From Sipunculus nudus (Eukaryota; Annelida; Sipuncula; Golfingiida; Sipunculidae), in assembly GCA_026874595.1 (NCBI GenBank), contig CM049307.1, positions 48,581,678 to 48,645,677 on the forward strand: a stretch of DNA of 64,000 bases, written 5' to 3'. The notes under the pieces were generated by a model. The model saw nothing but the letters and a program-made list of their open reading frames with translations. It was not told where the DNA came from and did not search any database. Position numbers and translations under genes: made by a program. Each line of letters opens with the position of its first letter. Within the stretch, counting starts at the first letter, position 1. Shown piece by piece: positions 57,425-63,149 of this stretch.

Positions 57425-57592
57425 GCTGTATTTGAACGTCTGATGCTTGCTTCTCCTGGGGAGCTTGTTGTTAATACTACTGGAAATAAGAGGCCTAGTC
57501 CAGGACTAGCTAGTCAGGCTGGTGAGTCCAATATACTGACGTACCTGTACCAGAGCTATGTCAGAGCACAAAACATCAAAACAGATAAACAG
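57425..57592 (+). CDS. UBE4A: UBE4A, fourth coding exon
   Basis: Acceptor CTTTTTAG, donor AACAG/GTAGGT, 168 nt, phase 0 to 0. Encodes AVFERLMLASPGELVVN and later ILTYLYQSYVRAQ, matching the ALFARLLLQDPGNHLIN...FCYLYSCFQRA region of vertebrate UBE4A. This is the last UBE4A exon visible. The next lies beyond 64000, after a 4.7-kb transposon that starts 48 bp into the following intron. The exon itself looks intact, so the insertion need not inactivate the gene. Confidence 0.92.
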
Positions 57593-57640
57593 GTAGGTGC
57601 TATGGGTCTTCTTAATCATATGTATTAACACACTTATTAC

Positions 57641-57670
57641 ACAGTGAAGCCCACTTATTGTCATATCAGT
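57641..57670 (+). repeat. Left terminal inverted repeat of the two-gene transposon
   Basis: Starts ACAGTGAAGCCCACTT and ends TGTCATATCAGT. Differs from the inverse of the right repeat at four positions. Confidence 0.85.
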
Positions 57671-58814
57671 GGTGCATGCATAAATTATGATAATAACCGG
57701 GATTTGACATTATCCCGGCTTCAACATCAGTGTACTTTTGAGTCCTAAAAGAGGCGTCATGTCTCGTATGATATTAAATAAATTGTCAATAAACAGGAAA
57801 CAGGAACGTTTATGAATATTGTTATTGCACAACGGCATTTCAAATTACGTTTATGCACACCTGAAATTTATTTCCTGTAAGTTTTATGCCACCTGCCGCA
57901 ATAACTGACAAAAATCCGACTTGCCAAAAGAAAGAGACGTAGCGTCTGGGTCATGAGGTAAAATTTCTGGAAATATGCACAGTTATAACGTAATTTGTAA
58001 CCAACTATTTTACTAAATAATACTTTGCCATACTATTGCGCCTTATTTTCCGGATATCTTATTAATGACTCAAACTTCCATGATCGTTTTTATGACAAGA
58101 CTGTTCAGGGAGTGGACATCGTCATGCCATTGTCAACTTTCTGAAGTTTCTCCGCGATTGAGGTTTTTGACCGGGTATCTCCTCCAGTACTCACAAATCC
58201 TCCAGCTTTCAGTTGACCCTTAAAGGTGATGTCCAATCGCAAGAAACGTTTAGAGCTTGTGCTTTATATCATCTCGGCGAAATGTCACTGAAGTTTAAAC
58301 CGCGGCCTTTCAAAGGCTAGGAGTAAATTATGTATGATATGTGATTGAAAACATCGCCCTTGTTAATGTTCGAAGAAAAGCAATAATCTGGATTACCGTG
58401 GTATCTTAAAGGCCGGGTTTCTGAACCCCTTGGTTCAGACGGTATTCCCCTTTGAAACATAATAGGTCATGTGACTGTGACTGACAGCTTGAGTCTGGGC
58501 TTATCATGTAGACACCAGACTCAGCACGTGGATATCTGGTCTGTGTTTTGGTACTGGTAATGTGTGGGGGGGGGGGGGGGTGAATCATTAATAAAAATTA
58601 AGTGTTCTTCCTGGAAACATGTAAATTTCTATATAATATAAAGATTTGGGGCTCAGGATGGCATGCAGCAGATTAAATGATAAACTCTTCAAAGTTGTAG
58701 ATTTTCATGCATTGAAGTATGTCACACAACAGTACAGTAACAAAAATAAATGCACCATATTTACCTGATTCAATTTTCTAAAAATATTGTGGATAAAATT
58801 AAAAGTCCAGATTC
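57671..58814. other. Transposon left arm, non-coding
   Basis: Between the left repeat and the stop of the ballast-like gene. Holds the CCGGGA/TCCCGG hairpin and a poly-G run at about 58566-58580. No coding frame with family similarity was seen, although its length would allow a lost exon of the minus-strand gene. Confidence 0.5.
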
Positions 58815-59405
58815 TCATTCCCACATATGTCCCATATATGCACTGCCTCCAGGACTGGGCAGCCAGTCTCTCACCAGTTTCAGTACACAGTTCGGCATGA
58901 TATCCCTCCTGTGATATACATACTTCTTCTTTCGTGGATCTCTATTCAGAGCCTGCGACTTCCTCTCCAGATAGGCAGGGTTATTCCATACACCCCAGTG
59001 GTGTAACATCGTCCAGAAAAACCTGTACTTGGCCTTTCTCAGCTGACTGTTTCTGTCATGTGGCAATCTGCGCCCTTGTGGCCACCAGCCCTGCTGATTA
59101 GTGCGGTCAGTGATGCAGGGAGAACAAAGACAATGTGGACATTCAGCTGCCCCGGGCCTGTGCTGTGGGATCACAGGCTCATCTTGCTGGTCATTACTTT
59201 CAGGTCCCTGTGGGATCACAGGCTCATCTTGGGGGTCATTACATTCAGGTGTATGTGAATCCCCATCACCCTGTGCACCTGTGGTTTGTTGTTGTTTACA
59301 CAATTCCTGCAGCTCCTCTACAGTAGCCAGTTTGACATCCCAACCACTATGTCCAAACAGAGCATTGATGGTATCTTGTTGCTCATTTGTCACTCACAAT
59401 GCCAT
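58815..59405 (-). pseudogene. Ballast-domain (P2X7 C-terminus-like) protein of the transposon, one early stop
   Basis: ATG at 59405 is followed by Ala, Leu and an in-frame TGA (59396-59394), then 192 open codons to TGA just after MWE. Counting from the GTG at 59393, residues 1-30 look helical. Residues 50-77 hold two copies of NDxQDEPVIPQ. C85, H87, C88, C90 and C93 form a CPHCLCSPC cluster. Residues 118-145 read RKAKYRFFWTMLHHWGVW.., and 162-191 contain RRDIMPNCVLKLVRD and YMGHMW. The Cys cluster plus [IM]P-C-V---[IV]R-..YP-P-G--Y-G pattern resembles the C-terminal ballast domain of vertebrate P2X7 and invertebrate proteins often labelled P2X7-like. No membrane segment or P2X ectodomain is present. 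Function is unknown; zinc binding is inferred from the cysteines. Confidence 0.68.
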
Positions 59406-59853
59406 TATTTTCATTCCTTCTTCCATGATAATAATTCTAATGTTAGCTATCTCTAGAAACAAGTCTGAGAGTTTCTCTGATCAAATTGAGAATGTAGACC
59501 CTGCCAAACTAGGCTGTATCAGCACTGACTAAACTTGATATAACCCTTATCTACAGCAGGGTCAGTGTGTGTCACCTACCCTCAACATGGTAAATATCCT
59601 GTGTCAGTCTTACTAAGTGCAGGGCCAAAATGTCCCCTTATCTGTCATTATGGTCATGTCTGGTCCCCTAGCATCTCCTCCAGTATCATTAATCAGCATT
59701 CCAGTGTTAATGGGTATTAATGAAGATGTTGAAAGATATATGTAAGGTGCAAGTAGGTCCAATGGAAGGCAGTAAAAACACATGAACACTCAGTCACTTG
59801 TTTGACGCTGATACAACTAGACACAAATTTTAGCTAAACTTTACTATTTGAAT
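59406..59853. promoter_or_regulatory. Divergent spacer between the two transposon genes
   Basis: About 450 bp separates the two starts, so a shared bidirectional promoter is likely. A TGTCCCCTTATC / GTCCCCTAGC pair near 59630-59670 is the only internal repetition noticed. No TATA box can be assigned with confidence. Confidence 0.4.
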
Positions 59854-61470
59854 ATGGCAGCAGAGAGAATGCGAAAGCACAGATCCCTACATGGGAGACA
59901 ACCAAAATTCCAACTGGAGTGTCCAGGTGACAGTACTAGAAAGGAAAACCTACTCCACAAATTAAGACTAATGAAGAAAGAGTTGCCAAACAAATCTGTG
60001 ACAAACACAGACACACTGGAGCTAGCACTTGATTTCTGGCTGGAGCACAACAACAAAATTCAGTCAGATAGGCAGGGTGAAGGCAGTGAAAAAAATGTGC
60101 CCTCATCATATGTACCTGTTTCAGCCAGCGGCGTCAACCAGCCTATGTTTGCCACCACAAAAGACGCTATACAGAAACTGGTGAATCAGATTGGTGCACA
60201 TAAATGTTCGTGTAAAGAAGACCTAGTTTGGAATGACTATTCTTCATTGGGCCACACAGCATTTATCAAATTTACCTGCAGTGCCAAGCACCAGATTTCG
60301 TCGGGAGCATCACCATATTTACCTGATGGCACCAGCCTTGTCAACCTGAGATTTGCCTATGGTTATATGACAAGTGGGATGCTACCTTCACATTATGAAC
60401 GTTTTGCTGAAGCTGCAGATTTTGGACAGATAGGACATACCCGTATGACAGAGATGGTTGCCACCTTTAGTGACTGCGTGAATGAGAAGGTCCAGGATTC
60501 TTGTTATACAGCTCTTCTTGAGGAGATAGGGAGTTATGAGGACCTCACAGAGGGTATAACAATCATAACTGATGCTCGTCATGGGGGTAGAAAAAATGCG
60601 AAAGACACTGATGTTGTTTGCATCGGCTATCAAACTCATAAAGTTCTGAGAAATAAACATATAACAAAATCAGATGAGACTACTACCCAAAAACATGAGA
60701 GAATTGGTACAGAGCGATTATATAAATATTTTGATTAAGAAAATTTAGAGATTGGTGTACATGCCCATGACAACAGCGCAACAATAAATAAATTTATAAG
60801 AGAAGAAAGGAAGTTCACAATAAACCAGAATGACACCTGGCATGCTGCCTGCTCAGTGAAGAAGGCCATGACAAATCTGACAAGAGGGGCAAACTACAAG
60901 CATGGTGTGACTTGGCACTGGCAGCTCAGTGATAAAGCAGGGTCAGTAAGGACACATTTTCATTGGGCCATGAGGAACTGCCAGAATGATCCTGACCAGT
61001 TGCGGAATCAACTTGATAATATTGTTAATCATTATCAAAATGACCATGCTAGATGCAACAAATCTTCACGGTGCAAAACTGACCCTCATTATGAGCCATC
61101 GAAAATTATCCTCACATATTTGAAAGCAGTTGAGCTGATGTCAAAAGTGATAAAACAATCTGCTGTATACAGAATTGCTTTATCGTATGCATTGGCACTA
61201 GATACTTATTATGTTGAAAGTTTTAACAACGTTTTAAACATATTCCATGATAAACGGATAGTGTTTGGAAACACTCAGTATGAGATGCGTACTAACTTGG
61301 CTATTTGTCACTGGAATGAGAATGTTGACAGGCCATGTACCAGCAGGTGGAACCCTGAGCAAGCTGAGGCTCCCAGGAGGTCAGCAGGAAAAAAGAACCT
61401 CAAGCCTGCTACTTATACTTATAGAAATAACATATGGACACGTTGGATCTCTAGATTTTATACATCATAG
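59854..61470 (+). pseudogene. DDE (RNase H-fold) transposase with a single in-frame stop
   Basis: A 538-codon frame from ATG 59854, interrupted only by TAA at 60736-60738; the frame is the same on both sides. Numbering codons from the ATG: a polar, basic N-terminus; a zinc-like CSC (118-120) with C142 and H145; the conserved region GTSLVNLRFAYGYMTSGMLP; the first catalytic Asp candidate D240 in IITDARHGGRKNAKD; the stop at 295; the second Asp D306 in VHAHDN; NQNDTWHA (324-331); and a Glu candidate E455 in YYVESFNN, followed by LAICHWNENVDRP. The spacing fits a transposase with a long insertion between the second Asp and Glu. This family is widespread in cnidarian and mollusc genomes, usually as uncharacterised proteins. 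The stop separates the two Asp residues, so a normal translation product would be inactive. Confidence 0.87.
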
Positions 61471-62346
61471 CATCTGACACTTGCCCAAAATTATATTTAC
61501 ACAGTACAAAACAGGACTGGACTGTTATATTTCTAGTATTTCACCTAATGTTCTTATGGATTGTAATACATGTATGCCTTTTATATATCAAGTTGGACAA
61601 AGTTACATTTCAAAATATTTGGTAAGTTACATTTTTTTATAATCATATGAATAGACTGGAATGAGTGAGAATGTGGACCCATAACAACAGCCATGTGAGT
61701 TTGTTTATAAACAAAGAGGGTGACTCAGGGCTTGCTCCTGATTGGCCAATCATACTGCTTTGCACCTCCCACCCGGCAAATTTGAACTGGGGCTGGCTTG
61801 AGCAGATATATTTAATTGTATTGTATAAACAACATAAGCTATGTCAAAACAGATAATGTTATCAAGTCCTTTGTAGTATTAGGAACATGTCTGCCAAAAT
61901 TCAGCTCAGATAACATCTTCCTTCACAGCTAATATTCAGAATACAGTAAGAGCCCAAGTGAACAGTTGCAGATATTATGTTAAACTCCATGTTGCCCAGT
62001 AACGCCCCCTGGTATTTATAGTGGAACCCGGTCTTTAAGATATTAATTAGCTAAGTGACGAGGAGTGACTCGCATACATCACTGCACTTGCCAGTCCCAC
62101 ACAGGTGGGAGATGCAATCGCTTGATACGCCTTACCGATTACAGGCTCTTGGCCTCTTTGATCGCCGTATCAGTGTTTGATGTGATATTAACTGCGAACT
62201 GGTATCACTGTCAAGGGTTCAAAGCATGACAATAAATGGGATTATGACAATATTCCATGATGTTAAACGGTCAGATTTACCATTGTTTATATAGGAAATG
62301 GTTTGGGATTTCAGATTTATGTGAAAATAAGCGGGATTTTCTATTA
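61471..62346. other. Transposon right arm, non-coding
   Basis: Contains TGATTGGCCAATCA (about 61739-61752), which includes a CCAAT box in both orientations. GTGGAACCCGGTCTTTAAGA (about 62021) resembles the CAGTAGAACCTGTCT end of the MITE at 37907. The subterminal TGACAATAAATGGG lies at 62227. No coding frame was seen. Confidence 0.5.
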
Positions 62347-62376
62347 ACCGATATGACACAAAGTGGGCTTGACTGT
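62347..62376 (-). repeat. Right terminal inverted repeat of the two-gene transposon
   Basis: Ends AAGTGGGCTTGACTGT, the inverse of the left end apart from four substitutions in 30. Confidence 0.85.
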
Positions 62377-63149
62377 ATATACCGACCATGATGCACACTT
62401 CATTTAAGTATGGAATTCCTTTAAATCATAGATCAAGCTAATTTAGAAATTGAAACTTTTTCATTCCAAATACAAACAAACAATGATCCAGCAATACAGA
62501 ATATAGGGTACAAGAACAAACTGATATGAAGACATTTGAATAACAGTCAATCTTAAAGTATTTAGAAGCAAAGGATAATATACATTTCACTAGCATAGTT
62601 CTGATTGATAAATGCTTGACAGGAAGTTCTGATTTATCAAAGGAAAAATTCAGACAAAACAATCCTCATTTAAACTGATAGAGAATGCATTTGTCAATAA
62701 AATTGATACCTTTGCATTTTTTAAATGAAAATATAGAAATTACTCTTTCCTGAGGGTAGCTCTGTCATAGGTTCAATATTTTACGTATGATTCTGGTTAA
62801 GAAAAAAAAGGTTCTCTGTCATGAATGTTTAACATTCAGCTGTCTGGCAGTGTATTTATCAATACTGTGGTTGGCCTTTGGTGAGGGTGACGAAAACATG
62901 ATATTTCCAAAATGGAAATTATCATGAAATAAAAAATGTATAAAATTCCCATCCTACACAGATAAAATAGTCATTCATTTAGTATTACTTTATTTGCATC
63001 TTATCCATTTCTATAGCATTAGAGGAAAAAGACTGATATTTTAAAAGATAACAGATCTTTTTATGTTACCTGTAAATCAAAGATTGGTACATTATAAATA
63101 TGAATCAAATTTTGATTTCCAAAGTAATTAAATAACATGCATATTTTTT
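62377..63149. other. Remainder of the UBE4A intron, no gene seen
   Basis: AT-rich. No segment resembling the next UBE4A exon was found, so the intron continues past this point. Confidence 0.5.

Follow-up and report, generated by a model that had tools for sequence, protein, structure and literature searches.

A decayed Kolobok-type transposon of Sipunculus nudus with divergent genes for a DDE transposase and a probable ballast relative

In a stretch of 64,000 nucleotides from Sipunculus nudus (assembly GCA_026874595.1, contig CM049307.1, positions 48,581,678 to 48,645,677 of the forward strand; hereafter the window), a small gene faces away from a DDE transposase gene. Do both genes belong to one transposon, where does this element end, and is the product of the small gene related to the cytoplasmic ballast of P2X7? 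A sequence-only reading had placed both genes in one transposon, bounded by 30-bp terminal inverted repeats (TIRs) at 57641..62376, and had called the small protein ballast-like. Our results very probably reveal a decayed cut-and-paste transposon of the Kolobok superfamily (58410-62034), which was inserted at TTAA inside an older nonautonomous element and encodes the DDE transposase together with a divergent KolX-like ballast relative.

Ends, target site and superfamily of the transposon

The boundaries of the transposon (Table 1) could be followed to other places of the same genome (G000, 1.43 Gb, 153 contigs). The accessory protein had 78 matches in it, and the best 30 were taken as loci. 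Both ends were traced, with different flanks, at L010/L046, L011/L047, L013/L048, L019 and L024; L019 and L024 kept both ends and lost much of the interior. The same left end was present at 11 other distinct loci with differing flanks, preceded by TTAA at 8 of them and by ATAA at 3, the latter being a point against the reading given here. Right ends were printed for 5 other loci and TTAA came next in every one. In a sixth copy traced rightward (L015/L049) the alignment halted 6 bases before the element end, and the remaining loci were too diverged, truncated or short for ends to show. The window itself has an inner inverted pair, with TATC-TTAA-AGGCCGGGTT (58402-58419) as one arm and 62025-62042 as the other. 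For TTAA-anchored inverted 18-mers with at most 1 mismatch and with arms confined to the first and the last 900 bases of 57900-62300, the window gave a single occurrence and 2000 order-1 Markov sequences gave none; the pattern was picked after it had been seen. Furthermore, L025 and L027, whose accessory frames are 37-38% identical to that of the window, start with TTAA followed by AGTGAAAAG (with one extra A in L025), indicating that this type of end also exists in a distant family.

Next to the left TIR, on its inner side, positions 58420-58439 form a perfect inverted repeat, with 8-bp arms separated by a 4-nt loop (TCTGAACC-CCTT-GGTTCAGA), which recurs exactly in 6 of the 11 other left ends as far as these were printed. 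It is possibly a binding site.

By its ends, target site and motifs, the transposon is assigned to the Kolobok type. Kolobok elements are described as having TTAA duplications, 5'-RR/YY-3' ends and a C/DxxH motif, and the transposases of almost all lineages carry a zinc finger (accessible parts of Kojima and Bao 2022, PMC9587614). The element in the window has the TTAA duplication, AG...CT termini (5'-RR/YY-3'), DDE residues with DxxH and a downstream zinc finger. TTAA together with AG ends was also described for T2-MITEs and Xenopus Kolobok elements (PMC6004289, in the part accessible). In an alignment of 28 sequences, D240, D306, D327xxH330 and E455 were invariant or at least 90% conserved, and H393, H398, C401 and C407, downstream of DxxH, were invariant. 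This conservation, along with the motif order given in PMC9587614, suggests catalytic and zinc-finger roles, respectively. The transposase would excise the element at its AG...CT ends and join it at TTAA. A protein search with the transposase found 183 relatives, 120 of which were listed and 27 of these make up the transposase alignment A2; bacterial and archaeal genomes scanned with the transposase alignment held no relatives. The Pfam match of the transposase was Mutator-like PF20700, and it was weak. A piggyBac transposase was rejected, as the two halves had no Pfam matches at E up to 10 other than PF20700 and a weak OST-HTH. KolobokP was rejected as well, because long terminal direct repeats are lacking: no ungapped direct repeat found in 57500-62500 exceeds 45 nt, and the longest one is intragenic.

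Table 1. Coordinates of the transposon, its genes and the surrounding repeat in the window
Feature	Position	Strand	Basis
Kolobok-type DNA transposon, 3625 bp	58410..62034		both ends recur at other loci with different flanks
Left target-site duplication TTAA	58406..58409		sequence; single TTAA at 5 of 7 empty sites
Left TIR AGGCCGGGTT, 5'-RR, 10 bp	58410..58419	+	sequence; 11 other distinct loci
Right TIR, minus-strand AGACCGGGTT, plus-strand YY-3', 10 bp	62025..62034	-	5 right ends elsewhere
Right target-site duplication TTAA	62035..62038		sequence; right ends at other loci
Ballast-like accessory gene (KolX-like)	58815..59426	-	ATG at 59426, stop at codon 11, then 192 open codons
Spacer between the two divergent start codons, 427 bp	59427..59853		coordinates
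DDE transposase, 538 codons, one in-frame TAA at 60736-60738	59854..61470	+	sequence; alignment of relatives
Putative catalytic residues of the transposase	D240 (60571), D306 (60769), DxxH 327-330 (60832), E455 (61216)	+	conservation
Putative zinc-finger residues H393/H398/C401/C407 of the transposase	from 61030	+	conservation
Outer repeat, left part (nonautonomous inverted-repeat element hit by transposon insertion)	57638..58409	+	copy search; empty sites
Outer repeat, right part (terminates in the 33-bp inverted repeat)	62039..62379	+	empty sites

The accessory gene and its pairing with the transposase

On the minus strand, 58815-59393 is a frame of 192 codons, and it diverges from the plus-strand DDE transposase, as the sequence-only reading had stated. 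What went unnoticed there is that both genes are broken, the transposase by its in-frame TAA and the accessory gene by its early stop at codon 11. The view that the true start of the accessory gene is the upstream ATG at 59426 is supported, because the frames of most aligned relatives begin earlier and sibling copies L010-L013 are open at the position of the premature stop of the window (L011-L013 have stops elsewhere). Judged from its reading frames, this copy is decayed and can make neither protein whole. In the linker of the accessory gene, 59163-59252 consists of two 45-bp tandem units that are 89% identical; additional copies of this stretch are found in L015, so the length of the linker varies.

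Protein searches with the accessory frame gave 65 relatives among 73 candidates, and a later search gave 220, of which 133 were listed and are counted below; profile A1 holds 33 of them and A3 109. Named relatives of the proteins come from bivalves (Mytilus, Pinctada, Tegillarca, Mizuhopecten) and the annelid Owenia. Viral contigs scanned with the accessory and transposase alignments held no relatives. A further repeat family in G000 (L039-L044) contains accessory relatives that are 25-28% identical, the matched stretch being open in 5 of 6; neither ends nor a partner were found for it.

The sequence-only reading had proposed that the divergent layout, if recurrent, would make the domain an accessory of a transposon family, and our observations support this. 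Transposase sequence, often broken or partial, lies upstream on the opposite strand in all six close copies (L010-L015). The same was seen at three of six diverged loci (L025, L027 and L038), and no transposase was present inside the fetched flank of about 1.5 kb at L031, L035 and L036. When the 133 accessory and 120 transposase proteins listed were compared, with same-contig status inferred from length and source, there were 13 accessory/transposase pairs from contigs of equal length. Of these, 10 had the same source (the other 3 had no common source and were uncounted), whereas at length offsets of 1 to 100 the number averaged 0.78 and never exceeded 4. For contigs of at least 3300 bases, 10 same-source pairs compared with 0.235 and a maximum of 2. 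A mirror-tree analysis of both proteins gave r 0.578 (2/20000 permutations, 11 pairs). The ratio of nonsynonymous to synonymous substitution rates (dN/dS; counts omit stop codons) of the accessory gene was 0.12, 0.31 and 0.38 in comparison with L018, L025 and L027, respectively, at dS of 1.6-2.6, which is near saturation, and ranged from 0.12 to 1.06 over all 18 loci computed. On the other side, the mirror-tree correlation owes much to two close pairs, and dN/dS was 0.31-1.06 in the six close copies. Taken together, it is supported that the accessory gene belongs to the transposon family and recurs with the transposase.

The 427-bp spacer may be a shared promoter region, from which both genes would be transcribed. 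The accessory protein might work in trans, partnering the transposase-DNA complex through end or target binding or through contact with a host factor, a role for which we judge the chances about even. Alternatively, the gene could stay outside the transposition complex, as a passenger or as a regulator that, e.g., represses its own element or counteracts silencing by the host. The dN/dS near 1 in two of the six close copies (L010 and L013) is consistent with this alternative; we consider it rather less than probable, since the accessory gene was kept and co-inherited with the transposase, in the divergent layout, down to about 40% identity. Such retention and co-inheritance weigh more against a passenger than against a regulator.

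Relation of the accessory protein to the P2X7 ballast

The accessory protein is poor in cysteines and probably related, though distantly, to the cytoplasmic ballast of P2X7. The ballast label of the sequence-only reading is thus kept in part: it is weakly visible in the sequence and is backed by enlarged profiles, but not by Pfam, the PDB or Foldseek. The part in common with the ballast is the C-terminal half, which has NxxLRxxxYR followed by the skeleton P-x-C-x4-[IV]-R-x3-P-x(5,6)-Y-x-G. Besides the window frame, 122 of 133 relatives contain this skeleton, a relaxed form of cluster 3 of Rump et al. that was loosened after inspection, vs 0 of 26600 shuffled sequences. It stands in the accessory protein together with CxxCxCxxC (117/133 relatives), and the core of Rump cluster 1, CxCxxC, is present in the window and 119/133. 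Clusters 2 and 3 as printed are absent from the window and from all 133 relatives (0/133 each), and the CCR cluster of Rump et al. occurs in 0/133 relatives. In its last 115 residues the window frame has 5 cysteines, as compared with 4 to 6 in 113/133 relatives.

The genome G000 also contains clear ballast frames, with 30 matches to the Pfam model P2RX7_C (PF20478; best E 6.5e-37), and a profile of these recovered P2X7 in the PDB at 3.6e-29. When the 110-row accessory profile was compared with nine of the genomic ballast frames, P was 4.6e-4 over 29 columns. After distant relatives had been added to the accessory profile, its comparison with eight genomic ballast frames plus two P2X7 gave a probability of 80.5% and P 1.3e-5 over 55 columns, and 0 of 150 column shuffles reached the score (best 27.2 vs 37.9). 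This convincing comparison was the last of four tries. The profile-profile comparison with the P2X7 ballast, which had been suggested with the original label, hence has two outcomes: it was marginal with P2X7 alone (P 0.044 and 0.016) and clear only after the accessory profile was enlarged.

A number of results weigh against the relation. P2RX7_C had no match in the accessory frame of the window, and among relatives it matched weakly 4 of 34 (best E 0.17) and 7 of 110 (best E 0.077). E-values were better for FYVE_2, zf-C3HC4 and zf-RING_UBOX (0.0002, 0.00022 and 0.00092, respectively), each of which matched 6 of the 110, presumably via the cysteine cluster. Nine further frames (8 diverged, 1 close copy) gave no P2RX7_C match. 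We failed to find P2X7 in the PDB with profile A1 at E up to 10, Foldseek matched no chain to two accessory models (mean predicted local distance difference test, pLDDT, of 80.8 and 86.1), and VIA-align with one accessory model did not recover P2X7. With single P2X7 sequences, the hhalign score was equalled by 3 of 164 shuffles, and in hmmsearch the best of 358 scored shuffles exceeded the real score. Finally, the reduction in cysteines is not uniform, because 20/133 relatives hold 7 or 8 in their last 115 residues.

Could the accessory protein be an independent small zinc-type protein, non-homologous to P2X7, whose C-terminal motif became ballast-like by convergence? The missing Pfam, PDB and Foldseek matches, the better E-values of the RING/FYVE zinc-finger models, the marginal comparison with P2X7 alone and an alignment of only about 55 columns are what such a protein has in its favour. 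We regard it as unlikely, however, since NxxLRxxxYR and the C-terminal skeleton are collinear with the ballast, the skeleton is widespread among relatives and not among shuffled sequences, and the enlarged profiles agreed at a level that column shuffles did not reach.

Several of the PF20478 ballast frames of G000 are themselves repeated: at L050-L061 they occur as near-identical repeats, for example L050 with L051 and L052, 99% over 3.4 kb. A transposase of the lineage described here was within about 1.5 kb of none of 20 fetched PF20478-matched loci. Seven frames adjoining PF20478 loci showed no convincing transposase domain, which is a weak test, as the transposase frame of L027 is equally without a Pfam match. 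We offer a wider and rather doubtful proposal, namely that invertebrates such as bivalves harbour a large Kolobok branch whose standing partner is a second ballast lineage, reduced in cysteines and separate from the 7-cysteine KolX/P2X7 type, which is also repeated in this genome. On this view, what TTAA-targeting transposons have in common as the ancestral functional part would be the C-terminal half of the ballast rather than the zinc cluster.

The older repeat around the transposon and comparison with known systems

The 30-bp TIRs that the sequence-only reading took for the bounds of the transposon do correspond to an inverted repeat, imperfect and 33 bp long (arms 57638-57670 and 62347-62379, 85% complementary), but it bounds another repeat family. 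This outer repeat, about 1.1 kb long, is a nonautonomous inverted-repeat element that is older than the transposon and unrelated to it; its genome carries at least 40 copies, which are about 90% identical. When window 58000-58600 was searched against G000, 40 of 925 candidates were scored, and all 39 non-self copies ended at query 405-411, i.e. window 58404-58410, with 89-91% identity. In each of seven fetched copies the alignment spanned the empty site, the junction of both outer flanks (L002 is without the left repeat end and L004 without the right one); a single TTAA was present at the empty site in 5 of the 7 and the other 2 differ at TTAA. Because the copies stop at the inner boundary and the empty sites span the junction, the outer repeat is the older one, and the gene-bearing element was inserted into one copy of it, with TTAA as the insertion point. 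Among 34 fetched accessory-gene stretches at 28 distinct places, several of which stop before any element end, only the window's own copy had outer-repeat flanks.

A single 4.7-kb transposon with the 30-33-bp inverted repeats as its bounds is therefore highly improbable: these repeats are real and enclose both genes, but the outer repeat is gene-free in 39/39 other scored copies and 7/7 examined across the junction, and the gene-bearing element, which has its own common ends, was never flanked by it in the other fetched copies, so that the empty sites and the common inner ends refute the outer repeats as transposon ends. A host ballast gene at this site, which had been considered as a counter-explanation, was likewise rejected for this genome, because the seven empty sites examined in it hold neither gene. 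In many copies of the outer repeat, TA adjoins CAGT at the ends. To the left of the outer element, the stretch 57430-57595 looks coding (AVFERLMLASPGELVVNTTGNKRPSPGLASQAG...) and may be a host-gene exon.

The main idea of the sequence-only reading, a ballast domain derived from a mobile element, is already in print: KolX of the Kol0 lineage was described as a ballast fold, and P2X7 as having arisen by fusion with KolX (Kojima and Bao 2022, PMC9587614, accessible parts). In our literature searches, P2X7, ballast and transposon occurred together only in that paper, and none of the matches paired P2RX7 with Kolobok. Judged by titles and counts among the matches listed, KolX in the ballast sense seems confined to PMC9587614, as does 'cytoplasmic ballast' in a broader search. 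A cysteine-reduced ballast relative with a Kolobok transposase was not found in these searches, whose range was the literature outside Repbase and the supplements of PMC9587614. Ballast relatives other than P2X7 are almost without functional data, nanor being the only one named in the accessible part of PMC7016195. A transposon lineage that keeps a stripped-down ballast beside its transposase, in many diverged copies, is thus a natural setting for studying the function of the domain and finding its essential part. Ballast-type proteins would also be undercounted if the relation is true, because Pfam misses the accessory branch.

As far as these sources describe them, the closest known system is Kol0/KolX (PMC9587614), which shares with the element here a DDE transposase with C/DxxH, a zinc finger, TTAA, 5'-RR/YY-3' ends and a second, ballast-type protein. 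Kol0 KolX has 7 conserved cysteines, whereas the accessory protein here combines CxxCxCxxC with a single C-terminal cysteine and is missed by P2RX7_C; the window frame is thus not a 7-cysteine KolX as in Kol0. A few piggyBac families encode a part similar to the C-terminus of KolX without most cysteines (PMC9587614); unlike these, the transposase here has no piggyBac model match and the ends are AG...CT. KolobokP (PMC9587614) belongs to the same superfamily and has an accessory gene on the opposite strand, but this encodes a different protein, is placed downstream of the transposase and comes with long terminal direct repeats that are lacking here. The P2X7 cytoplasmic ballast, or ZCD (Rump et al. 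2020, PMC7016195), has in common with the accessory protein the C-terminal skeleton, NxxLRxxxYR and the CxCxxC core; it differs in that the frame here has neither the CCR cluster nor a P2X channel. What is new in comparison with these systems is the cysteine-reduced variant, the boundaries of the element and its nesting in an older repeat.

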